From Aphanocapsa lilacina HA4352-LM1 (GTDB lineage: Bacteria > Cyanobacteriota > Cyanobacteriia > Gloeobacterales > Gloeobacteraceae), in NCBI GenBank assembly GCA_019359725.1, contig JAHHGR010000015.1, positions 1-64,000 on the forward strand: 64,000 bases of DNA, written 5' to 3'. Below are positions 31,098-46,216 of the stretch, in pieces (the stretch's first letter is position 1; the number at the start of each line of letters is the position of its first letter). The position numbers and the translations under genes were made by a program. The notes beneath the pieces were generated by a model. The model was not told where the DNA came from, searched no databases, and was given only the letters and a program-made list of their open reading frames with translations.

Positions 31098-31568
31098 CTA
31101 CTGAGGGATCCGCATCTCGGGGAAGTCTCTAACGAACACACCCATATCGCTGCCGAGCGGGTAGCTCCAACCCGGTTCGCAGCGGCCGACCACCATCGAG
31201 ACGCGCCGGAAATGATCCGGGTAGCGGCCAGGATCGCACACGTATACCCAGGGTGCTTTGATCACCGGCCAGAACATCGCTTTGCCTTCGTTGAGCACCC
31301 CGGGCACTGGTACCGTCTCCGGCGTGCCGTCTCCAGTGCAATCGACGGCAAGGTTGGCTTGATTCCAGCAGGTGGTGGTGCCCGAGCGGTTGAACGTCGC
31401 CACCTGGGATCGCCAGTGGGCCAATAGTTCGACCCCCTGGGCGGTCGCTTCGACGTTGGCATCGCGAATGACGCCTACGGTGGTGGTTGCGGCCACCGCC
31501 CCTAAGATCGACAGCGCCGCGAGGGCAATCACCATCTCGAAGAGCGTAAAGCCGTGGGAACTTCTCAA
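31098..31568 (-). CDS. type IV prepilin-like / pseudopilin
   Basis: MRSSHG|FTLFEMVIALAALSILGAVAATTTVGVI: prepilin cleavage motif with E at +5. Confidence 0.85.
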   Translation of the reverse strand: MRSSHGFTLFEMVIALAALSILGAVAATTTVGVIRDANVEATAQGVELLAHWRSQVATFNRSGTTTCWNQANLAVDCTGDGTPETVPVPGVLNEGKAMFWPVIKAPWVYVCDPGRYPDHFRRVSMVVGRCEPGWSYPLGSDMGVFVRDFPEMRIPQ

Positions 31569-32140
31569 GGTGAGCCTCCTTGGGGAGTGCGGGTCAAAAA
31601 GAGGATAGCCACCCGCAACTGCACCTTGCCCGCCTCGGTGGAGTCGAACTCGTAGGAACGCAAGGAGACACTGCCGCGGCTGCGGGTGTGCAGCCCGTCC
31701 AGATCGGCCAGAAAATTCCAGATACTGCTCTCGCTACCGACGGTACTTGCGGTGCAAAGCAGCTCGCCCGCCTTAGGTTGACGGTGAAACTGCACCGCGA
31801 GCACCAGCGATTCACGCGCGGCAAGGCGGGTGAGCAGCTGCAGCGCCTGGACTTGGCTGTTGAGCTTGAGCGCCTCCAACTGGCTTGTCTGGCGGCGCAA
31901 CCGGCTAAGGCGCTGTTGCAGCCCGACGGCACTGAGGCCCGCATCTTGGGCAAGGGTCTGCTCTTCGCGGACGGCATGGTCGATCTGTACGTAGAAGTAG
32001 CTGCTGAGCAGCAGGGCGAACGCACCGCTTGCCAGCGACAGCCAGCCGACCCAGCGGTAGAGTTCAGGAATCCTTAGGCCGCTGCTGGGTCTGGAGGCGG
32101 TTGGCGAGGTCGATTTCGATGGGGATAGAAACCTGGTCAC
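31565..32140 (-). CDS. PilO/GspM-like bitopic inner-membrane protein (start approximate)
   Basis: Single TM (WVGWLSLASGAFALLLSSYFYV) followed by coiled coil (LQQRLSRLRRQTSQLEAL) and ferredoxin-like-size domain; ATGA overlap with downstream pilin gene. Confidence 0.65.
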   Translation of the reverse strand: MTRFLSPSKSTSPTASRPSSGLRIPELYRWVGWLSLASGAFALLLSSYFYVQIDHAVREEQTLAQDAGLSAVGLQQRLSRLRRQTSQLEALKLNSQVQALQLLTRLAARESLVLAVQFHRQPKAGELLCTASTVGSESSIWNFLADLDGLHTRSRGSVSLRSYEFDSTEAGKVQLRVAILFLTRTPQGGSP

Positions 32141-33110
32141 GGGTGCGGACCCCAAAATGAAGGTCGCCAAGCTTGCCGAGGTGCTCGAATTTGCCCAGCG
32201 ACTGCAGCACAGCGATTGGGCTGCCGACGACGGTGAGTTGGAGTTTGCGCCGCTCGGTGAGGATAACCTTTTGGAGGTAGGCACCTTCACCGACATGACG
32301 TCTTAGCAAACCGGCCAGCCGGGTGCTAGGAATGTGCCCGGAGCGAGCACGGCTAAATTCGCTCTCCAGGCCGGAGTGGCGGGTTTTGCTCGCTTTTAGC
32401 TGCGCCTTAAGCGGGGTCAGCTCCGGCTGCAACAGGCCCGGCCCATAGGTGGCCAGGGCTTGCCGGATCTGCCACCATTGCCCGGCACTCCAGCCCCACA
32501 GGCCGATTCCCGCGAGGGCAAGCGCCAGGGTCTGCTGGCGGGCGCTCAGCAGCACCAGCGGCAGCGCCCGCTTGCGACTGGTGCCCGCCTCCAACAGGGC
32601 CGCGAGCGTGACCGGATGGCCGGCGAGCGGAATGACCAAGGCTCCTAGTTTGGAGTCTTCCCCTTCCGGAAAGCGGCGAATGCCCAGGTAATACACCGGC
32701 TCGCCGTCGTCGGTGCTCAGTAACTCCACGGCCCGTGCCAGGCTGCCGGCGCTGCGCGAGCGCAGGGCGGCCAGTCGTTCGATACCGCCGTCGCCGATGC
32801 GGGCTACCTCGACGTAGGCCTCCTGGGCTGTGGACAGATCGACAATCGCCACGAAGGGCGGCAGCCGCCGCACCTTACGGACCACCGCCCGCAGCGCGGC
32901 AAGCATCAGCGGGTAGGCAAATTCCGGACCTTTAACCGGCGGGCGGGCCGCCTGCCAACGGATGTCGACCGGCCCCACCGCGTCGGGGCGCCAGGAGCCC
33001 GGCGGCTCCGGCGCCTCCGCCGGGGGTGTCTCCCACTGGGAGGTCGCCAGGTAACAGGCGGCTCCGAACCGACAGCCGACGACGTCTTCCTCGGTGCGCA
33101 GCAGTTGCAT
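32064..33110 (-). CDS. GspL-like / PilM-N-like protein
   Basis: N-terminal cytoplasmic region, single TM (LALALAGIGLWGWSAGQWW), periplasmic alpha/beta domain; position between pilin and PilO-like gene. Confidence 0.6.
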   Translation of the reverse strand: MQLLRTEEDVVGCRFGAACYLATSQWETPPAEAPEPPGSWRPDAVGPVDIRWQAARPPVKGPEFAYPLMLAALRAVVRKVRRLPPFVAIVDLSTAQEAYVEVARIGDGGIERLAALRSRSAGSLARAVELLSTDDGEPVYYLGIRRFPEGEDSKLGALVIPLAGHPVTLAALLEAGTSRKRALPLVLLSARQQTLALALAGIGLWGWSAGQWWQIRQALATYGPGLLQPELTPLKAQLKASKTRHSGLESEFSRARSGHIPSTRLAGLLRRHVGEGAYLQKVILTERRKLQLTVVGSPIAVLQSLGKFEHLGKLGDLHFGVRTRDQVSIPIEIDLANRLQTQQRPKDS

Positions 33111-33115
33111 GGCAC

Positions 33116-33631
33116 TTAGAGCGCCGCTGTAAAGGGCGAGGTGCCGACGCCGCCGGTCTGGCTGACCACCGGGTAGGCTCCCTCCCCGAAACCGGTGCCG
33201 CTCACCGAAGAGGCGGAGCAGGTGTTGGTGGCGCTCGCCTGCCCGAGGGCCGCCGCCGCCCGGTTTTTGATGTTGCCGGGGACTTTGTTGTCGGGGTTGC
33301 ACAGGTCGGTGAGCGAAATTTGCATCGGCAAGGGCCGGAAGTTGGTGCCCAGAACCGGTTTGAGAATTTCGATATTTGCTGCGTCCTCCGGACCGCTCAG
33401 GGCATTGAAAGCACCGATGGAGGTGGTGTCGCCGCGGGCGACCACCGAGTCTCGCCATTGCATCATCTTTTCGAGGGCGGCGACGGTCGCTTCTGCCTTC
33501 GAATCGCTGCTCAGGCTGCTCAAGGTAAAAAATGAGGCCAGGGCCAGGAAAATCAGCACGATCATCGCGATGGTCAGTTCGATGACCGTGACACCGCGGC
33601 GGTTGCGCTTGCGGACGTTCAGCTGAGACAT
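33116..33631 (-). CDS. type IV prepilin-like major pilin candidate
   Basis: MSQLNVRKRNRRG|VTVIELTIAMIVLIFLALASFFTL; basic leader, G^ cleavage, E+5, paired C-terminal cysteines. Confidence 0.85.
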   Translation of the reverse strand: MSQLNVRKRNRRGVTVIELTIAMIVLIFLALASFFTLSSLSSDSKAEATVAALEKMMQWRDSVVARGDTTSIGAFNALSGPEDAANIEILKPVLGTNFRPLPMQISLTDLCNPDNKVPGNIKNRAAAALGQASATNTCSASSVSGTGFGEGAYPVVSQTGGVGTSPFTAAL

Positions 33632-33658
33632 GGTGGAATCCTCCCTTGTTGGGTAACG

Positions 33659-34753
33659 TCACTGGAGTTTGGGCAGCACAACCGAGAACTGGATAATAAA
33701 AGCTTCCAGAAATACGACTGTCGCTGCGATGGGCAGATAACCCAGGCCCTCAAAGATCAAAGCGGTGGTGCCGGCCCCCCGCAAAGTCTGGTCGACCAGG
33801 GCTTCGCGCCGCGCCTCGATAGCCCCGATGCGGGTCTGGGGTTCCATCGATTCGAGGGTGGCAAGAAAGGCGCGCATCTCCGGGCGGATGCGCTCCAGGC
33901 ACAGGCCGCGCCGCAAAAAAGAGCGCACGGTGTTGCCTTCGATCTGCATGTGGCGGCCGATCCCGGCCAGCGAAGCGCTCAGATAGAAGCCGGCCACCCC
34001 CGCCGCCCGCTCGAGGCTGTCGCCGAAGAGCACCCCGGATTTCAACAGCACCTGCAAAGCCCCCAAAAAGCTCAGCCAGCGCAGGTCGAGGAGCACCTGC
34101 AAACTCGAAAGGCGGGCGGAGAGCGCTTCGAGTTGGTGCAGTACGCGCGGCTGTTTGAGCCCCCACACTCCGCCGACGAGCAATCCCGCCTGCAGGAGCA
34201 CCCACAGCCAGGGCCAGTCGTGGATGAAGCGGACGATGTCCGCCTGCAGGGCAAAGATGGCGTACTGAGAAAGATCCCGCCCTTCGATTTCCTTGAGGAT
34301 GGTGCCCAGTTGGGTGGCGCTCACCCCCACCAGGACCGCCTGCGAGAGCAGAAAAATAAATAGGATGCGCCGGAGTGGGCCGAAGACTTTGCCGCTCAAT
34401 TCGACCTCGACGCGCAGCGAGCGCTCGAGTACCGGTACGATGCCGTCGAGTTGACCGCGCAACTCCGCCTCGCGCACGCAGCCGGTGAGCATCGCCGGAA
34501 AACGCTTCGGAAAGCTCTGCATCGCCCGGGAGACAAACACTTCCGAGCCCTCGCGGGCGTAGCGGAACATCAACTGGGCGACCTCCAGCCAGGCGGGATC
34601 GTTTTTGGCCTGGCCGATCTCCACCAGTACCCGGCAGCGGTCAATGGGCTTGCCCAGGGCCGCGTTCCAGAGGTATTGCTGCAATAAGTCCAGCGTTTTT
34701 TGCCGATTCCAGGTTTTGATTTCGAAGCGGCGCCAGGAGGATGCAGCAGTCAT
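33659..34753 (-). CDS. GspF/PilC-like inner membrane platform protein
   Basis: Repeated domain with TMs; LRVEVELSGKVFGPLRRILFIFLLSQAVLVG and ...ALIFEGLGYLPIAATVVFLEAFIIQFSVVLPKLQ; gene context. Confidence 0.75.
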   Translation of the reverse strand: MTAASSWRRFEIKTWNRQKTLDLLQQYLWNAALGKPIDRCRVLVEIGQAKNDPAWLEVAQLMFRYAREGSEVFVSRAMQSFPKRFPAMLTGCVREAELRGQLDGIVPVLERSLRVEVELSGKVFGPLRRILFIFLLSQAVLVGVSATQLGTILKEIEGRDLSQYAIFALQADIVRFIHDWPWLWVLLQAGLLVGGVWGLKQPRVLHQLEALSARLSSLQVLLDLRWLSFLGALQVLLKSGVLFGDSLERAAGVAGFYLSASLAGIGRHMQIEGNTVRSFLRRGLCLERIRPEMRAFLATLESMEPQTRIGAIEARREALVDQTLRGAGTTALIFEGLGYLPIAATVVFLEAFIIQFSVVLPKLQ

Positions 34754-36615
34754 AGTGTCACCTCCGCCTCGCGACGCGACAACAGCCGCATCGCCTGCCG
34801 GTCCTCCTGCAGATGGGGTGCGACTTTTTCCCAACTCACCAGCCCACCGTGGCGGCGCTCGGCGTCGAGCATCCAGGCGGCGGTGCGCCGGTAGGTCTGC
34901 TGGTGCTGAACCTCGGCGGCTGCCAACAACTCAAAGACGGTGATCTCGGGGCGCAAAAAGTGCTCAGCCAGGGCCGGTACATAGATAGCCTCGGTGAGAG
35001 GAACGCGGTCGGCCAGATAGCCCAACAGCGGTCCTTCGCTGCGGCAGGTGCCCCGGCCGCAGCCGGGACCGGGCCGCCGCCATAGTCGGATTTGCCATTG
35101 CAATGCCTCGCGCAGAGGCTCCGGTACCGCTTCGACGATTGAACAGTGGGGGCAAACCCGCGGCAGGAGTCTCTGGCAGTACACATAGCCGGTGGTCGAG
35201 ACGAAGGCGGCGATCTGGGCGTGGCCGTCGCGCTCCGATTCGCCGCGCAGCAAGTTGCGCAGCCGCTCGGTAAAGCGCACTGCCCGGTTGGTGTGCAGTG
35301 TGGTGAGCACCAGTTTGCCGTTGGCGAATCCGAGAATGCGTTGGGCGGTGTCGCGGTCGTTGATTTCTCCGAAGATGATGTCGCCCGGGTCGTTGCGCGT
35401 GGCAAAACGCGACCAGCCCAACCAGTCGTTCTGCTCGGTGACTTCGTATTGGAAAATGCCCTCGATCAGCCGTTCGATGGGGCTTTCGAAGCTGTGCACA
35501 TGGTGGCCGCGGCGGGCGCGCAGCAATCCGACATTCTGCAGCAGCATCGACTTGCCGGAGTTCATCGAACCTGCCACCAGGCTGATGGCCGTCTCCAGAT
35601 CCAACAGACACAGCATCTCGGTGTCGGCGATGCGCTCCATCTCGCTTAAGACCTGTTCGGGCGGCTCCTCCTGGGTAGGCCACAAGCCGGTGATGCTGCG
35701 GTAGATGCGCGGGTGCAAGTTCATGCGCTCCAGGGGAATAAACCCCGCCTGGCTGATCACCCGCAAGCCGATTTCCCAGTCGCCGCCGTCGCCGGGACCG
35801 AGGGGCGCCATCACGAGGCGCATCGTCTGCAACTGGCCGCTGCGATCGGCCAGGGTGACGTTGCCGTACTGGATGCGCCGCTGGGAAATTTCGCAGTCGG
35901 CCGCCGAGGCGAGGCGGGCGAACATCTGACGGCCGCGGCCTTCGAGATCGACGCTTCCCCAATCGAGTTCGCCGATTTCTTCGCTGATAAGCACGCGCTC
36001 CTCGCCGATATGGGCAGCGACGTGGGCGCACCGGCCGCCGCGGGTAAAAAGCCGTACATCGGACGCTTCGTAGGCCAGCAGCACTTCGTAAAGCTGAATA
36101 ATCAGGCTGTCGGCGGGCGACTCGCCCCAGCGGAGAATCTTGTCCGCCGATTTGGCGGAGGTGGCCTGCAGCGTGGCCTGGCTGCCGCTTGCAATCTGGC
36201 GGCGCAACAGGTTGAACAACTCGATTTTCTCTGGGACATAGACCGGTAGCGCCTGCAGTTCGGCCTGCTCAGCGACCGTGAGGGGGCTTACGGTGAGCAC
36301 CGAGCGGCGGCCTCCGTGGGGGATGACCAGATGCCCGAGGCTCGCCCAGTTCTTCTCGATTTGCTGCATTTCGATTTGATCGATCTGCTCTGCACGCACG
36401 ATCCCATCCACCGAAAAGAAGACGGCGGCGCACTGATCCCAGAAGCGCTTTTCATCGGCTACCTGCTGACAGGCAACCTGAAAAAAGCGCGTACCACTGG
36501 TGCGGTAGAGTTCTTCAAGAACCTGGCGTTCGGTCTCGCCGGTACTCACCGCGCCAATGAAGCGTTCGATACGATTGTGAGTTCGGGCAGGTGGGGAACT
36601 TTTCACGGCTGTCAC
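34750..36615 (-). CDS. GspE/PilB-family secretion ATPase, divergent
   Basis: Walker A AGSMNSGKSMLL, Walker-B region RNDPGDIIFGEINDRDTAQ, His box GKLVLTTLHTNRA, four-Cys motif CPHC...GPGCGRGTC. Confidence 0.9.
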   Translation of the reverse strand: MTAVKSSPPARTHNRIERFIGAVSTGETERQVLEELYRTSGTRFFQVACQQVADEKRFWDQCAAVFFSVDGIVRAEQIDQIEMQQIEKNWASLGHLVIPHGGRRSVLTVSPLTVAEQAELQALPVYVPEKIELFNLLRRQIASGSQATLQATSAKSADKILRWGESPADSLIIQLYEVLLAYEASDVRLFTRGGRCAHVAAHIGEERVLISEEIGELDWGSVDLEGRGRQMFARLASAADCEISQRRIQYGNVTLADRSGQLQTMRLVMAPLGPGDGGDWEIGLRVISQAGFIPLERMNLHPRIYRSITGLWPTQEEPPEQVLSEMERIADTEMLCLLDLETAISLVAGSMNSGKSMLLQNVGLLRARRGHHVHSFESPIERLIEGIFQYEVTEQNDWLGWSRFATRNDPGDIIFGEINDRDTAQRILGFANGKLVLTTLHTNRAVRFTERLRNLLRGESERDGHAQIAAFVSTTGYVYCQRLLPRVCPHCSIVEAVPEPLREALQWQIRLWRRPGPGCGRGTCRSEGPLLGYLADRVPLTEAIYVPALAEHFLRPEITVFELLAAAEVQHQQTYRRTAAWMLDAERRHGGLVSWEKVAPHLQEDRQAMRLLSRREAEVTL

Positions 36616-38000
36616 TTGAGCGGCGTGATCCCGGAGGTGGGTTTGTGGCTGGCAAATTCGGGGGGCAGGTTGCGGGGACTGTCGGCGGCGGGAGCTTGCG
36701 CTTCGAGCAATTCCGCCCCAGCGAGGGGCTGTTCCTGGATGACCGGCTCGATCATCACCAGCAGCCGCTGGTCCTTGACCACCCGGTTGGAGGACTTGAA
36801 CAGATCTCCCAAAATTGGAATGGCGCTCAGCACCGGCACCCGGTACTCGATATTCGCTTCGTCGTGGCGGGTGATCCCACCCAGCAGGGCGACGCCGCCG
36901 CTGTCGAGGCGCAAATTTGGGATATCGATGGAGTTGGTATTGATTACCAGACCCTCCCCGGATCCCTGGGGATCGGAAAAATCGCCGCGCACCGAGATGG
37001 CGACCTGCTTTTTGGAGGGCAGGACCATCGGGGTGAGGTTGAGGGTGGTGCGGGCGTTGATCGCCTGGGTAGAACTGAGGGCAGTGCCGTTGGAGACGAT
37101 GGTCTGGGGAATGCGAAACTGAACATTCTGGCTGATGGTCGCCGTCTCGCCGTCGCTGACCACCAGTTGTTGATCGATAAGCGTCTGCAGGGCGTTGACC
37201 TGCTGAAGCAGCTGCAACTGTAGAACAATGTTTGCAAATGTCAGAGTGAGGGCAGAGCGGTTGGGCAGTACGCCGTTGTTGCCCAGAGGGGCGGTGCTCA
37301 AAGCTCCGGCCCCGGCCGCAAGCCCCGAGTACTGTGGAAACGCGCTGCCTCCCAACGCCCCGCCGCTGCCGAGATCCAGGCCGAAGCGGCCCATCGCCAC
37401 CGGACGGCCGAAGGCGTCGTACGAACCGGAGGTGATCCCGGTGCCCAGGCTGAGGCCGCGTTCATTGGCGACGCTGTCGTTGACCAACAGCACCCGCAGC
37501 CGGATGACCACCTGGGCGGGAGCACTCAGCTTGTCGGAGACATAAATAATGTTGCGGCTAGCCCGAGAGCGAAAGGCCCGAAAGCCGATGATTTCAAGGA
37601 TTTCCTTGAGTTGGGCGTAAGCGTCGAGGCCCTGAAGGTTGCTGAAGCTGAGATTAAACTGCGATGGCAGCGGGATGTCGATGCGTTTGCCGCGGGGATT
37701 GGGGTTGGCAAGGCCGGGGGTATTGGAGGTGGTGTTGACGACATTATTGCCGGAGTAAACGTCCCCTTCGGGCCGGGACTGTTCATTGGGCGCCTCCGTT
37801 CCCGTGGCGGCTCGCCCCTGGCCCCGTTCGATGAACACCACCGTCAGGCCCGCCTGGGAGGCCAGATCCTGGATGAAGTCCCGGGCGGAGACATTGCTTT
37901 GGGCTGAGAGGTTGAAGGTGCTGCTCTGGGCGCAGGCCGGAGCGCCCGCGAGCAAAACCACCAGTGCCCCGGTTACCAGAGGTAAGGTGCGAATGTGCAT
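36612..38000 (-). CDS. secretin (GspD/PilQ-like)
   Basis: Signal peptide; C-terminal secretin signature EYRVPVLSAIPILGDLFKSSNRVVKDQRLLVMIEPVI. Confidence 0.92.
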   Translation of the reverse strand: MHIRTLPLVTGALVVLLAGAPACAQSSTFNLSAQSNVSARDFIQDLASQAGLTVVFIERGQGRAATGTEAPNEQSRPEGDVYSGNNVVNTTSNTPGLANPNPRGKRIDIPLPSQFNLSFSNLQGLDAYAQLKEILEIIGFRAFRSRASRNIIYVSDKLSAPAQVVIRLRVLLVNDSVANERGLSLGTGITSGSYDAFGRPVAMGRFGLDLGSGGALGGSAFPQYSGLAAGAGALSTAPLGNNGVLPNRSALTLTFANIVLQLQLLQQVNALQTLIDQQLVVSDGETATISQNVQFRIPQTIVSNGTALSSTQAINARTTLNLTPMVLPSKKQVAISVRGDFSDPQGSGEGLVINTNSIDIPNLRLDSGGVALLGGITRHDEANIEYRVPVLSAIPILGDLFKSSNRVVKDQRLLVMIEPVIQEQPLAGAELLEAQAPAADSPRNLPPEFASHKPTSGITPLK

Positions 38001-38010
38001 GGGGTTGGGG

Positions 38011-38868
38011 TCAATAAAGGGGTGTGATTTGCTCTGGGCTGGGGACGGGCGGTGGCACAGACGATTCGAGCCGGGCGAATGCTTCCGGGGGGCTGCCGGT
38101 GGTTGCCACGCTGCTCACCAGACTGAGTTCCACCGCCCGGCCGTCCGCCTGGCGCACTCGCACGCTATAGCGGCCCAGGCTGGTATGCGCCGAGACCACG
38201 GTGACGGAGCGTGGGCCGCTCTGGCCGGGAGCGAGTTGCACCCGTTCGCCTTCGACCTCAAGCAGTACCACCCGCTCGTTGCCGCCAATCAGGGCCATTT
38301 TTGTCTGGCCGGCCTCCTGGGAGGGGCGCACCGGCGGCGGCAAGGGCGTAACACGATTCAGGGAGGGAGGGGCGGCAAGGGGCGGCAAAGGGGGCAGTTG
38401 GCGCACCGGCGGCGGCAGCATCTGGGCAAAGCGCGGGGGCGGCGGCGGGGGCGGCAGGGTCAGGACCGGCCGGGGAGGACCCTCCTGTTCTTCAAGTAGT
38501 TGTTCGATACTGGTCTGCACCTCAGCACCTTTGCGGGCGGCTTCGCTTTGCACGGAGTTTGCGGTGCGCTCGATTTGTCGGTCGAGGGTGTGCCGTTGGC
38601 GGACCAGCCACCAGTCTTGGGCAAGGGCGTACCCCCCGCCCGCCAGGAGCAGCATACCCGCGAGCACGAACAGCACCGGTCTTTGCCACTGCCGGGGGCG
38701 CACCGGCTCGATGCCGTCCCACTCCGGGTCCGGTACGAGCGGTTCGCTCGCCGCAGCGTCGCGCCCACTCAGCAAGGGGGCAATACTCGGCTCCGATGAC
38801 TCTGGGATAAAACCCGCCTGTGAAGGCGAATCGAACCGTTTTTTCCACTGTTCGCGCAAAAATGTCAT
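38011..38868 (-). CDS. GspC/PilP-like bitopic proline-rich protein
   Basis: TM LFVLAGMLLLAGGGYALAQ, Pro-rich linker, C-terminal HR-like domain KMALIGGNERVVLLEVEGERVQLAPGQSGPRSVTVV. Confidence 0.65.
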   Translation of the reverse strand: MTFLREQWKKRFDSPSQAGFIPESSEPSIAPLLSGRDAAASEPLVPDPEWDGIEPVRPRQWQRPVLFVLAGMLLLAGGGYALAQDWWLVRQRHTLDRQIERTANSVQSEAARKGAEVQTSIEQLLEEQEGPPRPVLTLPPPPPPPRFAQMLPPPVRQLPPLPPLAAPPSLNRVTPLPPPVRPSQEAGQTKMALIGGNERVVLLEVEGERVQLAPGQSGPRSVTVVSAHTSLGRYSVRVRQADGRAVELSLVSSVATTGSPPEAFARLESSVPPPVPSPEQITPLY

Positions 38869-39503
38869 GGTGATTCACCTGTCATCTGGTGAGCATCGGG
38901 ACGGCGGCTACCGGGGCAGACCCGTCCCTGGGAGCATTGGCGCCCCTGCGGCTCGCAGCAAAGAACGGCTTCTGGATAATTGAGCAAAATGTGGTGCCAG
39001 AGCGAGCCGGGTTGCGCCACCCGATAGCGGCTCGACAACGGAAGCGGCTCGACCCCCAGCGACTGCAGGTAGTCGTGGCGGTAGCGGGCGAGGCCCAAAC
39101 CGAAGGTGCGTCTGGAGCGTTGTAGCCGCTCGATGCAGTTGCGCACCCTGGCCATATTTTGAGGATCGATATCGGGGTGCACCAGCGTCAGCAGTCGCAC
39201 CTCCGGCTCACCGGGGATGGCACTCTGGTTGCTGATGAGGGCCAGTTCCTCCGCCTGAATCACAAGCAGGTCGCCGCGTTCGAGCCAGCGGGTGCGCCAG
39301 AGGCGAAAAATATGCATCAAAAGCGTATCTTCTGCGTAGCTGCGGCCCCCGGCCACCCGTGCTCCCACGACCACATCCTGCAGATGGATGGGCGGCCGTT
39401 CCGGATGCAATTCGACATGGGGCGGTTGTTCGCCCTGCAGACTGCCCTCAACGATAAACCATCCCTCCGTCGCCCGGATGATCAAGCGCCCTACCTTGGT
39501 CAT
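38865..39503 (-). CDS. unknown protein of the filament locus, Cys-rich C-terminus
   Basis: ATGA overlap with 38011-38868 ORF; C-terminal CCEPQGRQCSQGRVCPG; no recognised domain. Confidence 0.65.
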   Translation of the reverse strand: MTKVGRLIIRATEGWFIVEGSLQGEQPPHVELHPERPPIHLQDVVVGARVAGGRSYAEDTLLMHIFRLWRTRWLERGDLLVIQAEELALISNQSAIPGEPEVRLLTLVHPDIDPQNMARVRNCIERLQRSRRTFGLGLARYRHDYLQSLGVEPLPLSSRYRVAQPGSLWHHILLNYPEAVLCCEPQGRQCSQGRVCPGSRRPDAHQMTGESP

Positions 39504-39507
39504 AGCC

Positions 39508-40302
39508 TTACACCGAAGCTTGGACGTCGTACCAGGCCGCCTGACGGGCGGCCTCCGCGAGCATGCCCGCGGTCATACCCGCACTGGTCAGATACGTACC
39601 GACATAAGCCTCGAAGCTGGCGCTTTTAGGATCGAGGTGGGCGGCTTTTTCTAAGAAGCGCTGTAGCCTTGGAAACTGGCGCAGCTTACCGCGGTGGCGA
39701 ACGATAGCGTCGAGATCGGTGCCGGCACCCAGGCGGGGCTCGACGCTCAAAGGTTCGCTGGCCGGACGCAAGGGTAAAGCCGGGACCACGGCGGTCGGTG
39801 CTGTCGCATCCATGGCGAGCCCGGGTCGGGCAACTGTGACGAGTGTATCGGCGCGCACCGCGAGCGGGGCCACCGCAGGATCGACGTTGACCCGCGGCAC
39901 TTCGATGGTCGCGGGCTGCTCCGCGACCACCCCACCGGGCAGTACCGTGGGTGTCGAAGGTTCCGGGGGCGCCTGAGCCGCAGAGTGGCGCACCGAGCGC
40001 AATTGGGCCAACTCGCCCCTGAGGCGGTCGATAATCGCCTGCTGCTCCTGGTCACGGCGGACCATCAACTCGATGATCCGCGCCTCGCTCATCAGCAACT
40101 CTTCGCGGCGCACCGCCTGCTCCGGCCCAAAATACTGGCTTGCCGGATTGGTCTTGAAGATGCCATGCTTTTCGAGCACCTCCAGCCACCGCGCCTGGGC
40201 GGGATTGAGATCTTTAAATCGCGAGGGAGTCGCAGCAGGCGGCGGCGTCTGAAGGCTCGCCACCTGTGGGGGCTCGGGGGGCAGCGGAAGGATAGGCGCC
40301 AT
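39508..40302 (-). CDS. unknown protein of the filament locus, Pro-rich/coiled-coil
   Basis: ORF start codon of the minus-strand operon; coiled-coil RREELLMSEARIIELMVRRDQEQQAIIDRLRGELAQLRSV. Confidence 0.65.
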   Translation of the reverse strand: MAPILPLPPEPPQVASLQTPPPAATPSRFKDLNPAQARWLEVLEKHGIFKTNPASQYFGPEQAVRREELLMSEARIIELMVRRDQEQQAIIDRLRGELAQLRSVRHSAAQAPPEPSTPTVLPGGVVAEQPATIEVPRVNVDPAVAPLAVRADTLVTVARPGLAMDATAPTAVVPALPLRPASEPLSVEPRLGAGTDLDAIVRHRGKLRQFPRLQRFLEKAAHLDPKSASFEAYVGTYLTSAGMTAGMLAEAARQAAWYDVQASV

Positions 40303-40489
40303 GTCTACTCCTGAGGAATTTGCCCTGTCTGGGATGCAATGTCCGGATTGTGACAAATTTCCCACGTGTGGTCAAGGGCTGGATCAAGTTTTTCCGGTAT
40401 CGATGGTTGTCCAGGTGCCACACACTCCCGGCGGTAGCCGATCTTGCCTGCGGCAATATTTTGGTAAGGTGGTGGCAGCGCGATAGCTT

Positions 40490-41287
40490 GTGATGTATCC
40501 CTGGGAAAAACCAGTCAGTTCTTCTTCGGAGGCGGACATTGGCTCCATCGAGGATCCGTCCGAGAGCTACCCCTGGCTTAAACCGGCGGCTTCGGCGGAG
40601 GCGCTGACCGCCTTTGAGGAGGAATCCACAGCGGCGCGCTCCCCGGACGAAGAACGTCTGCTCGAACAGATTGCCGCCAACGTGCCTGTAGCCTTGAACC
40701 GGCCGGCGAGTGTGAGTTACAGCGAGCCGGATAGGCCCAACTGGTTGCCCCTGGTCAGGGTACTGCTCGGTGCCATCCTGGTGGGGGCACTGGCGGTCTG
40801 GTGGTTGCGCCCGGACCCGTCCGAGCCTGTGGTGCTGCCGTCTGGCCCCGCGCCAAAAACGCCCCCGGCGGGCGCTCCATCCCCGACCGGAGCTGCACAG
40901 CAACCCCCGGTGGCTGTGCTCATTGAACCGTCTCCGACGCGGCCGCTCGTCGAAAAGACCCTCAAAGACGGCGGCCGGACGAATCCCTTTGGCAGCGCCC
41001 TGCCTGAAGCAGCTCCCCCAAGACCGCCCGAGAATTTGCCGCCTGTCCCGGTGATCCGCACCCCGCCCCCGCTGCCTCCGGCCCCGCCGGTGCTGAATTT
41101 GGTGAGCCTCGCAGTCTCGGCTAGCAGCCGGGCGGCATTCATTCAGGTCACTGGCGCAGGAAGCGAGCCCAGTTACCACGAGGTGACCGTGGGCGATACG
41201 GTGGCGGGTTGGCGGGTTGTCGAAATTACGCGGGAGCGGGTGCGACTGACCCAGGGCAGCAAAAAGCAGACCCTGCTTGCCCAATGA
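40490..41287 (+). CDS. GspC/PilP-like bitopic protein (second copy)
   Basis: TM LPLVRVLLGAILVGALAVWWL, Pro-rich linker, C-terminal LNLVSLAVSASSRAAFIQVTGAGSEPSYHEVTVGDTVAGWRVVEITRERVRL. Confidence 0.65.
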   Translation: MMYPWEKPVSSSSEADIGSIEDPSESYPWLKPAASAEALTAFEEESTAARSPDEERLLEQIAANVPVALNRPASVSYSEPDRPNWLPLVRVLLGAILVGALAVWWLRPDPSEPVVLPSGPAPKTPPAGAPSPTGAAQQPPVAVLIEPSPTRPLVEKTLKDGGRTNPFGSALPEAAPPRPPENLPPVPVIRTPPPLPPAPPVLNLVSLAVSASSRAAFIQVTGAGSEPSYHEVTVGDTVAGWRVVEITRERVRLTQGSKKQTLLAQ

Positions 41288-41907
41288 AACGCATTGCGGC
41301 CCTTGTGCTGGCGCTGGCGGCCCTGGCGACCCCGGCAGCGGCGGCTCCCCTGGCCCAGATTGAGCCGGTGGAGGACGAGAAAGAAAGGATGATTCGCATC
41401 AGTGCCCAGGGGCCACTGCCCTTCGAGGTACTCGCAAAATCGGCCTCCTCGTTGGTGCTGTTTTTGCCCCGCGCCGAATTGGGCAATGCCCCGGCCCTCT
41501 TGTCGCTTGCGCCTTTGGCAGATCTGACGCTGGAGCAGAACCCCGTAGGGGTGCGGGTCAATTTCGAAAACCTGATGACGCCGTTTCTGGTGCGCGCGGG
41601 CAAAAAACCCGGCATCGTTGAGATCAGTTTTCCCAAGCCGCCCCCACCCCCCCCGCCGTCGGCCGCTCCCACACAGCAGGGGCGGCCCGGCACACCGGGG
41701 GCGCCGGGGCTGACCGGGGCTGCCGGTACCGCACAACGCACCGGCGTGCAGCCCGCAGGCACCCTGCAACCGTCGGATATCGAGCAGGGTCAGCTCACCG
41801 ACACTTCCCAGGTGGGCAAAGTTTCCGAAATCGCCGAGGAGGAACCGGATCCCCCCCGGCCGGGGATCGCTCCGGTGCCCCCGCGATCCAACCCGCCGCG
41901 ACCCTGA
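41284..41907 (+). CDS. secreted AMIN-like domain protein with collagen-like Gly-X-Y stretch
   Basis: Signal peptide; ERMIRISAQGPLPFEVLAKSASSLVLFLPRAELGNAP...VEISFPKP (AMIN-like); GRPGTPGAPGLTGAAGTA; ATGA overlap with 40490 ORF. Confidence 0.6.
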   Translation: MKRIAALVLALAALATPAAAAPLAQIEPVEDEKERMIRISAQGPLPFEVLAKSASSLVLFLPRAELGNAPALLSLAPLADLTLEQNPVGVRVNFENLMTPFLVRAGKKPGIVEISFPKPPPPPPPSAAPTQQGRPGTPGAPGLTGAAGTAQRTGVQPAGTLQPSDIEQGQLTDTSQVGKVSEIAEEEPDPPRPGIAPVPPRSNPPRP

Positions 41908-43549: not shown

Positions 43550-46216
43550 TCAATCGCCGCGCAGCACGACCATCGGTTCGACCCGGGTGGCGCGGCGAGC
43601 AGGCAGGTAGCAGGCCAGCAAGGCGACGCCCACAAGCACGAGCGCGGCGGCGGCGAAGGTGATCGGGTCGGTGGCGCTGATTCCGAACAACTGGCTTGTG
43701 AGGATCCAGCTTAGCGAGAGAGAAATTGCCGCTCCGATCGCAATCCCCAGCAGTACCACCGACATTCCCTGGACAATCACCAGCCGCATCACAGCTGCGG
43801 GACTTGCTCCCAGGGCGAGGCGGATGCCCATCTCCCGGGCGCGCCGGCTGACCGAATACGCGGTGACGCCGTAGATGCCCGCGGCGGCCAGAAGCAGGGC
43901 AACCCCGGCAAAGAGCACCAGCAGGAGCGTCTGGAAGCGGGGCTGGGCAATCGAATCGGCAAGAATCGCATCGAGCGCCCTGACGCTGTAGATGGGCAAT
44001 CGGCTGTCGAGTGCCTGCACGATCGACCGCACAGCCGGAGCAAAAGCCCCGAGATCAGCGTCGGTGCGCACCAGAACGGTCACCGCGTTGATTGGGTACT
44101 GGGCCTGGGGAACATACATCTCGGGTTCGGCCGGTAGACCGAGGCCGGCGTGGCGGATGTCCGCCGCCACACCGACGATCTCCTTGAAGCCGCGACCGCC
44201 AAAACCCAGGCGTATGCGCCGGCCCAAAGGATCGGTGCCGCCGAAAAAGCGCCTGGCAAATTCGGCATTGACGATCACCCGCTCCGGAGCATTGGCGTCG
44301 TCCGCCTCGACAAAATCGCGGCCGCGGCGGATGGGAATGCCCAGCGTCCGGAAAAAATTGAGCCCAACAAAACGCAAAGCGGCGGCCTGCCGGGTGGCAA
44401 GAGTACTTGGGCGGCCTTCGAATTCGACGCTGGTGCCGTTGTCCAGGCCGCTCAGGGGCACAAACTGGGCGACGGTGGCGGAGCGGACGCCGGGCAACTC
44501 CCCGATGCGCTCCAGCAAGCGCCGGTAAAACTGCGTCACCTGGGACGAACCTTGCGGATAGGCAATCTCAGGCAGATCGACCTGAAAACTTAGCACCCCA
44601 CGCGCAGAAAAACCCGGATCGACGTTGCTCAGGCGCACGAAGCTCTGGACGAGCAGCCCCGCCCCCACCAGCAGCCCCATCGCCAGGGCCACCTCCGCCA
44701 CGATCAAAGCGGAGCGCAGGCGGCCACCTGCCCCGCTGACACTGCGGGCAGCGTCTTTGAGTGGTTGCATCCCATCGCCCCGCCCAAATTGCAAAGCCGG
44801 CACCAGCCCGAAACCCAATCCCGTGGCCAGGGAGACCGCCAGAGCAAAACCGAGGACCGCGCCGTCCAGCCCAATCTCGGCGGCGCGCGGAATATCGCCC
44901 GGAAGAAGAGACCCAAGCGCCCAGGTGGCGACGAAGGCGAGCACCCCGCCCGCGGCCCCGCCCCCGAGCGCCAACAGTAGGCTTTCGGTCAATAGCTGCC
45001 GAACGATGCGCGCCTGGGTGGCGCCGAGGGCAAGCCGCACAGCGATCTCCCGCCCCCGGGTGCTCGAGCGCGCCAGCAGCAAGTTGGCGACGTTGGTGCA
45101 GGCGATGAGCAGAACGCAGCCCACGGCGGCGAACAGCACCAGCAGCAGCGGGCGCACCTCCCCGGTCAGCCACTCGATGGCCGGGGTTATCCGTACCCCG
45201 ACCCCGGTGTTGAAGGCGGGGTATTCCCCGGCCAGGGAGCGGGCGACAAGCTGCAGGTCCGCGCGGGCGGCTCCCAGGCCGACTTCGGGTTTGAGACGGG
45301 CGAGGGCGGCGCTGTAGTGCGGGTAGCCGCGGCTTGTCGGGATGGTCCCCCCGTAGAGAGTCGGCTCGGCATCGAAGGCCACCGTCGTCCACAACTCGAC
45401 CGGGTCGTTCTGCACCGGAAAGCGAAACCGGGCTCCCATCACCCCCACCACGGTGTAGGACAAGCCGTTGAGGGTGAGAGCCCTCCCGAGCACCCGTCGC
45501 TCGCCGTTGAAGCGCTGCAGCCACAGACTGTGGCTCAAGATCGCGACGCGCCCGGCCGGACCGCCGCCGAAGCGGTCTTCTTCGGGGCGAAAGTCGCGGC
45601 CCAGTTCAGGGGCCGCCCCCAAAAGGGAGAACAATCCGGCGGAGACTACGGCCCCCGTCACCCGGCGCGGCCGGTCGCCGCCCGCTAGGGTGAAGTGGGT
45701 GGCGTTGTAGACGGCCATACCGCTAAAGACCCGGTTGCGCTCGCGCCAGTCGCGAAAGTTCGGGTAGGAAACGCCGTAGGCGCTTCGCTCTTTTTCTTGT
45801 TGCACCACGACGAGCCGCTCGGCGGCGGCGAAGGGCAAAGGCCGCAGCAGCACGGTGTTGACGACGCCGAACAGGGCCGTGAACGCCCCGATGCCGACGG
45901 CCAGAATCGACACCGACAGCACCGTGAAACCCGGATCGGCCAGCAGCGTCCGCAGGCCGTAGCGCAGATCGCGGCGGGCCATATCGAGGTGCTCGCCCGC
46001 CGCCGTGGTCACAAGGGCCGCCAGGGTGCGCAGCCAGAGCGCCGCCAAACCCCAGCTGCCGCACTCCGCCAGCGCGTCGCGGCGCTCGTCGCGGAACAAC
46101 TGGGCCATCTCGGCGCCGTACTCGGCTCGAAATTCGCTCGGGTAGAGTATCAGCAGCCAGCTGTAAAGACGATCCGACCATTGGACCGTCTGACAAGAGC
46201 GCGCTTCGCTTTTCAA
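43550..46216 (-). CDS. ADOP-type (MacB/FtsX-like) duplicated ABC permease
   Basis: N-terminal RLYSWLLILYPSEFRAEYGAEMAQLFRDERRDA prefix plus two FtsX-type permease units; ATGA overlap with upstream padR gene. Confidence 0.9.
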   Translation of the reverse strand: MKSEARSCQTVQWSDRLYSWLLILYPSEFRAEYGAEMAQLFRDERRDALAECGSWGLAALWLRTLAALVTTAAGEHLDMARRDLRYGLRTLLADPGFTVLSVSILAVGIGAFTALFGVVNTVLLRPLPFAAAERLVVVQQEKERSAYGVSYPNFRDWRERNRVFSGMAVYNATHFTLAGGDRPRRVTGAVVSAGLFSLLGAAPELGRDFRPEEDRFGGGPAGRVAILSHSLWLQRFNGERRVLGRALTLNGLSYTVVGVMGARFRFPVQNDPVELWTTVAFDAEPTLYGGTIPTSRGYPHYSAALARLKPEVGLGAARADLQLVARSLAGEYPAFNTGVGVRITPAIEWLTGEVRPLLLVLFAAVGCVLLIACTNVANLLLARSSTRGREIAVRLALGATQARIVRQLLTESLLLALGGGAAGGVLAFVATWALGSLLPGDIPRAAEIGLDGAVLGFALAVSLATGLGFGLVPALQFGRGDGMQPLKDAARSVSGAGGRLRSALIVAEVALAMGLLVGAGLLVQSFVRLSNVDPGFSARGVLSFQVDLPEIAYPQGSSQVTQFYRRLLERIGELPGVRSATVAQFVPLSGLDNGTSVEFEGRPSTLATRQAAALRFVGLNFFRTLGIPIRRGRDFVEADDANAPERVIVNAEFARRFFGGTDPLGRRIRLGFGGRGFKEIVGVAADIRHAGLGLPAEPEMYVPQAQYPINAVTVLVRTDADLGAFAPAVRSIVQALDSRLPIYSVRALDAILADSIAQPRFQTLLLVLFAGVALLLAAAGIYGVTAYSVSRRAREMGIRLALGASPAAVMRLVIVQGMSVVLLGIAIGAAISLSLSWILTSQLFGISATDPITFAAAALVLVGVALLACYLPARRATRVEPMVVLRGD

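Follow-up and report, generated by a model that had tools for sequence, protein, structure and literature searches.

The window analyzed here, 64,000 nucleotides of contig JAHHGR010000015.1 from Aphanocapsa lilacina HA4352-LM1, contains at positions 31098-41907 a locus encoding a type IV filament (T4F) machine. Ten minus-strand genes follow one another in the order u1-u2-gC-gD-gE-gF-pilA-gL-gM-pilX; with p1 and p2, which lie on the plus strand and are divergent from u1, the locus has twelve genes. All twelve are real open frames at these positions, as proposed in the initial annotation of the window. Most junctions between the ten minus-strand genes are stop/start overlaps of the ATGA, GTGA, or TTGA type, and the others are gaps of a few to about 30 bases. 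Corrected starts place the beginning of gL at 33110 and that of gF at 34753; gM probably begins with a non-ATG codon near 32071 (ATT?). The features, in the order of the operon, are:

u1, 39508..40302, minus strand: conserved operon head without signal peptide; weak SLH-like N terminus, then a charged/coiled region
u2, 38865..39503, minus strand: conserved, cytoplasmic-looking protein; no HMM (hidden Markov model) match
gC, 38011..38868, minus strand: GspC/PilP-like alignment protein; topology from sequence, no HMM match
gD, 36612..38000, minus strand: short secretin, 462 aa; PF00263, 4.2e-30
gE, 34750..36615, minus strand: assembly ATPase; PF00437 (T2SSE), 1.5e-20
gF, 33659..34753, minus strand: inner-membrane platform (PilC/GspF), highly diverged; NCBIfam PilC 2.9e-6, PF00482 0.0038
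pilA, 33116..33631, minus strand: major-prepilin candidate; N_methyl 8.3e-4, slightly under the cut-off
gL, 32064..33110, minus strand: GspL-like; modeled periplasmic domain and secondary structure, no HMM match
gM, 31565..32071, minus strand: GspM/PilO-like; position after gL and topology, no HMM match
pilX, 31098..31568, minus strand: second prepilin; N_methyl 7.7e-7
control region between the divergent u1 and p1, 40303..40492, no strand: one sigma-70-like match upstream of u1 (consensus scan only)
p1, 40493..41287, plus strand: second GspC/PilP-like protein; topology from sequence, no significant HMM match
p2, 41284..41907, plus strand: exported protein with an ATGA overlap with p1; signal peptide judged by eye, without HMM match

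The locus proteins were compared with Pfam, NCBIfam, and Protein Data Bank (PDB) profiles and scanned against PHROGs. The Pfam and NCBIfam matches of the ATPase, the secretin, the platform, and the prepilins are at the superfamily level only, and all scores lie far below the class-specific cut-offs. The PHROGs scan returned only weak N-terminal pilin motifs, the ATPase core, and a phage secretin. Apart from a missing prepilin peptidase and retraction ATPase (PilT), the operon is a complete T4F machine, and its gene content confirms the atypical, self-contained locus described in the initial annotation.

Components of the machine

The first ~330 residues of gE form a lineage-specific N-terminal domain that matched no known family. 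In alignment, gE displays a Walker A motif (GSMNSGKS), a Walker B glutamate (GEIND), a TLHT box, and a CX2C...CX4C zinc-type site; because these elements are kept, the enzyme should be active. The closest solved structures are those of GspE, PilB, and PilF (1e-23 to 1e-20; PDB GspE 2.5e-23), with archaeal FlaI-type ATPases at 5e-4. DotB and VirB11 were rejected as relatives, their PDB profile matches being judged to cover the general ATPase core only. The secretin gD carries a signal peptide and, by eye, one STN/N0-like region. Its PDB matches are PilQ and GspD, and it scores below the NCBIfam cut-offs for both. gF was identified by its NCBIfam PilC match and by alignment.

The 13-residue leader of PilA (MSQLNVRKRNRRG^VTVIE) is intermediate in length and not of the long type IVb (T4b) kind. 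The AlphaFold model of PilA (predicted local distance difference test, pLDDT, 83.5; predicted template modeling score, pTM, 0.69) is one prediction from a shallow five-sequence alignment; it has a long helix at its N terminus plus four short ones, and no strands. The major pilin is thus predicted to be purely helical and free of β-sheet. To our knowledge, such a major pilin would be new among bacteria that have an outer membrane, if the prediction is true. The second prepilin, pilX, has a 6-residue leader (MRSSHG^FTLFE) and four cysteines, and alignment also backs its assignment. PilX is likely a minor or tip subunit and is the only extra prepilin, the pseudopilins H, I, J, and K being absent from the locus.

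A purely helical head on a long α1 helix is a feature of ComGC, the competence major pilin of monoderms, whose structure has been solved (PMC7212644). This likeness would suit a filament for DNA uptake, a role that we regard as very improbable. ComGC comes from monoderms, which have no secretin, and a Foldseek search of the PilA model against the PDB found no relative. With the ComGC model of NCBIfam, pilX scores 12.8 against a cut-off of 75 and pilA gives no match. The presence of a secretin and the lack of a ComGC-type pilin or fold match place the locus outside the Com pilus (ComM) class. In addition, the locus contains no com genes, and the canonical type IV pilus (T4P) of the genome would serve uptake.

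The putative alignment proteins are recognized by their layout. gC has one membrane helix, a Pro-rich linker, and a small C-terminal β domain, and gM has a membrane helix, a coiled coil, and a short periplasmic domain. gL appears to consist of a cytoplasmic α/β domain, one membrane helix, a coiled coil, and a periplasmic ferredoxin-like domain, an arrangement taken from the secondary structure of the model and to be read cautiously. The gL model is poor overall (pLDDT 43), with the periplasmic domain at about 60; Foldseek searches with this low-confidence domain gave consistent matches to XcpY/PulL/EpsL and PilO. β-lactamase matches of the gL alignment in the PDB profile search (E 0.02) were judged to be chance. 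The GspC-, GspL-, and GspM-like labels of the initial annotation agree with topology, gene order, and the gL periplasmic matches, but none of the three proteins has an HMM match.

The SLH match of u1 (E 0.02) falls under the cut-off, yet it is present in four of seven orthologs. p1 contains a membrane helix, a Pro-rich linker, and a C-terminal HR-like domain, and is found at this position in the genus Gloeobacter only. p2 ends in a Pro-rich tail. Its initial description as AMIN-like (41284-41907) reflects a likeness seen by eye and found no HMM support.

A conserved locus separate from the canonical type IV pilus genes

The host genome, assembled to 4.2 Mb in 99 contigs and 95% complete, also encodes a canonical T4P. 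Contig 24 carries pilB, pilT, and pilC together, the genome's PilT thus sitting with pilB and pilC and not in the locus. Contig 15 carries a pilMNOPQ-like cluster (PilP- and PilO-like genes precede its secretin) near pilD, the only prepilin peptidase of the genome. The locus therefore encodes a machine beyond the canonical one, with which it must share PilD, although a second peptidase could be missing from the assembly. The initial annotation had reasoned that a phylogeny placing all components within canonical cyanobacterial T4P or classical T2SS (type II secretion system), together with a genome that has no other T4P set, would speak against a distinct system; such a set is present.

The host is a Gloeobacter. 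Among the genomes compared, we take G001 to be G. violaceus PCC 7421, G002 G. kilaueensis, G003 G. morelensis, and G007 Anthocerotibacter panamensis. The closest complete genomes, G001 and G003, encode an ATPase 97-98% identical to gE. A profile of the gE N-terminal domain matches all six Gloeobacteraceae genomes (6/6) and the Gloeobacterales genome G007 (E 4e-85), and finds no match in the two other members of the order or in 385 other cyanobacterial genomes (0/385). The claim that the system is lineage-specific among cyanobacteria is thereby borne out. A cross-phylum scan with exact peptide patterns returned Gloeobacterales only (the named ones are metagenome-assembled genomes); since such patterns would miss distant relatives, confinement to Gloeobacterales holds within cyanobacteria only. 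A plasmid search recovered the general ATPase core only, at about 30% identity, and thus gave no sign of a mobile origin.

In the five other Gloeobacteraceae genomes, gene order is the same wherever the contigs cover the locus. For all genes, ratios of nonsynonymous to synonymous divergence (dN/dS) are below 0.45 in comparisons of close species and 0.14-0.33 when G000 is compared with G002, and all tested genes of the locus are under purifying selection. The shared order in five relatives and the purifying selection show that the locus is not a product of chance. The cluster of G007 contains counterparts of the secretin, gL, gM, gE, gF, the prepilins, u1, u2, and gC in a different order and at ~30% identity. 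The counterparts of gL, gM, u2, and gC are weak, being assigned at 24-27% identity or by position only; u2 is 53-98% identical within Gloeobacteraceae and 24% identical to its G007 counterpart. The G007 cluster also holds extra exported proteins. Three of them (L043:13798-17422) look like paralogs by eye, have no Pfam match, and are candidate substrates or tip proteins.

The secretin gene is whole in G000, G002, and G003. In G001, it is split after residue ~116 by an element of ~12.8 kb (L055:1300-14100; G001:C1:4093300-4106098), whose insertion site corresponds to positions 37645-37648 of the window. AAGC is present at both junctions, and a serine recombinase adjoins the left end. The element further carries a VapE/DUF3854 gene and helix-turn-helix genes, and resembles a satellite or an integrative mobilizable element. 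By analogy with heterocyst elements, its excision might restore the secretin. The interruption is the sort of damage expected of a decaying, functionless remnant, but we consider such decay highly unlikely, given the low dN/dS of all genes, a pilA dN of 0 among three close Gloeobacter genomes, and retention of the locus across genera. Inferences from the interrupted G. violaceus copy about secretion or display in Gloeobacter may mislead. Upstream of the element, u2, p1, and p2 of G001 show both higher dN and higher dS than the downstream half (compared with 38865-41907), which suggests recombination with another lineage.

Class assignment and proposed function

An ATPase, a platform, and a prepilin in one locus make up the "generic" T4F model of Denise (2019), in which secretin and peptidase are optional. 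As in that class, the locus has an ATPase, a platform, a pilin, and a secretin without class-specific genes, and among cyanobacteria the class is found in Gloeobacter only. A 2020 review on Denise et al. 2019 lists generic T4F in two cyanobacteria only, both Gloeobacter, and no T2SS, the type II secretion system (PMC7690835). These generic systems are likely the present locus. In their main text, Denise et al. (2019; PMC6668835) make no mention of Gloeobacter and give no locus, parts list, or function, and a 2025 review names type IVa pili (T4aP) as the sole T4F systems of cyanobacteria (PMC12288463). No description of this locus was found in the literature searched; the word "undescribed" in the initial annotation is nevertheless too strong, because the surveyed generic systems include two Gloeobacter.

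The gene order C-D-E-F-G-L-M is that of the E. coli K-12 gsp operon, and the two also have in common a secretin, a membrane-anchored GspC-like protein, and a single GspL-like protein with its periplasmic domain. A true T2SS that has diverged and lost its minor pseudopilins could account for these features. We consider this quite unlikely, since the locus lacks H-I-J-K and its own peptidase and scores far under all T2SS cut-offs (score/cut-off in bits: GspE 53.5/630, GspF 19.3/424, GspD 68.2/351, GspG 12.8/88.9), and tree union with T2SS is rejected as described below. The T4aP cut-offs are likewise missed (PilB 48.3/675.7, PilQ 70.6/284). The cyanobacterial T4aP (pilBTC, pilMNOQ) belongs to the same superfamily and probably uses the same PilD, but in this genome its genes are separate from the locus, which is a single locus without PilT. 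No Tad model of NCBIfam matched, and the ATPase is nearest to GspE/PilB/PilF and not of the TadA/CpaF type.

Single-gene trees join the Gloeobacter genes with those of G007 (ATPase and secretin 100/96 or better, platform 91/84); their branches were too long for them to place the clade alone. In an unrooted tree of concatenated ATPase, platform, and secretin, the Gloeobacter plus G007 clade receives 100/100, and a 99/98 branch parts T2SS and the genome's own T4aP from it. In approximately unbiased (AU) tests of the concatenated set, grouping with T2SS (p 0.0083) or with the own T4aP (p 0.0068) is rejected; for the ATPase alone, the values are 0.048 with T2SS and 0.034 with PilB. With few references and long branches, the trees support "neither T2SS nor local T4aP" and not a firm placement. 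The mixture of T2SS and T4P traits noted initially is seen in gene content but is weakened by the trees, because these show a single old and diverged lineage shared by the ATPase, platform, and secretin.

The T4b rows fall on the clade's side of the 99/98 branch. A T4b-like pilus for adhesion or aggregation would have a single operon, a major pilin with just one minor partner, a single GspL/BfpC-like protein, and no dedicated retraction motor; such pili are capable of exporting soluble proteins as well. Union of the ATPase with T4b is not rejected (p 0.295, few long-branch T4b references), the platform clusters with that of a T4b-like plasmid system (93/94), and BfpC structurally resembles GspL/PilM (PMC4471445). 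We nonetheless hold membership in this class (IncI/Cupriavidus-type, Tcp/Bfp/Cof) to be doubtful. Only two or three long-branch rows represent it, the gene order is unlike that of the Cupriavidus T4b operon, and no PilV/PilO2 is recognizable. The pilin also differs, with its intermediate leader, a predicted helical fold unlike the α/β fold of T4b pilins, and no pilin structural match.

We slightly favor the view that the locus encodes a Gloeobacterales-specific T4F machine, probably building a short or slow, non-motile filament for cargo export or an adhesive tip. PilD would trim PilA and PilX. gE, held at the membrane by gL and gM, would power gF, which would stack PilA subunits behind a tip of PilX, and gC, perhaps with p1, would link this inner-membrane assembly to the outer-membrane ring formed by the secretin gD. 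Without its own retraction motor, the filament would be non-retracting and short or slowly extending, fit for export or display and not for twitching. A short or slow filament seems most likely because the locus has no PilT, a compact helical major pilin, and one minor pilin. The lean toward export or display, the least certain step, comes from the T2SS-like order and L/C-type parts combined with the lack of H-K.

Several points weigh against this view. The function is read from absences (PilT and H-K), and the Gloeobacter operon yielded no substrate. The PilT encoded on contig 24 could act on the filament in trans. The helical pilin is predicted by a single model from a shallow alignment, gC, gL, and gM were assigned from topology, gene order, and gL structure without sequence-level homology matches, and the trees combine a small reference set with very long branches.

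More tentatively, the machine may represent a distinct, deep-branching diderm T4F class, neither T2SS nor T4aP nor T4b, that is confined to the earliest-branching cyanobacteria and has a β-sheet-free pilin and its own alignment complex. A complete second T4F in these cyanobacteria is relevant to the question of whether a dedicated secretion filament ever existed in the phylum, and the locus also bears on the origins of T2SS and T4b.

Other machine parts occur in the same genome. On contig 23 (L044:2979-8746), an assembly-type ATPase, a secretin of the AMIN type, and a prepilin-like protein of 758 aa lie in one run, in which no own platform gene was seen; related ATPases were found in other cyanobacteria. 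A lone secretin on contig 2 (L063:7284-8939), with no machine genes nearby, is close to the contig 23 secretin in the tree (99/100). In the window, positions 43550-46216 encode a large permease of the MacB/ADOP type, the ADOP kind being typical of Acidobacteriota, adjoining an acetoacetate-decarboxylase-like protein.

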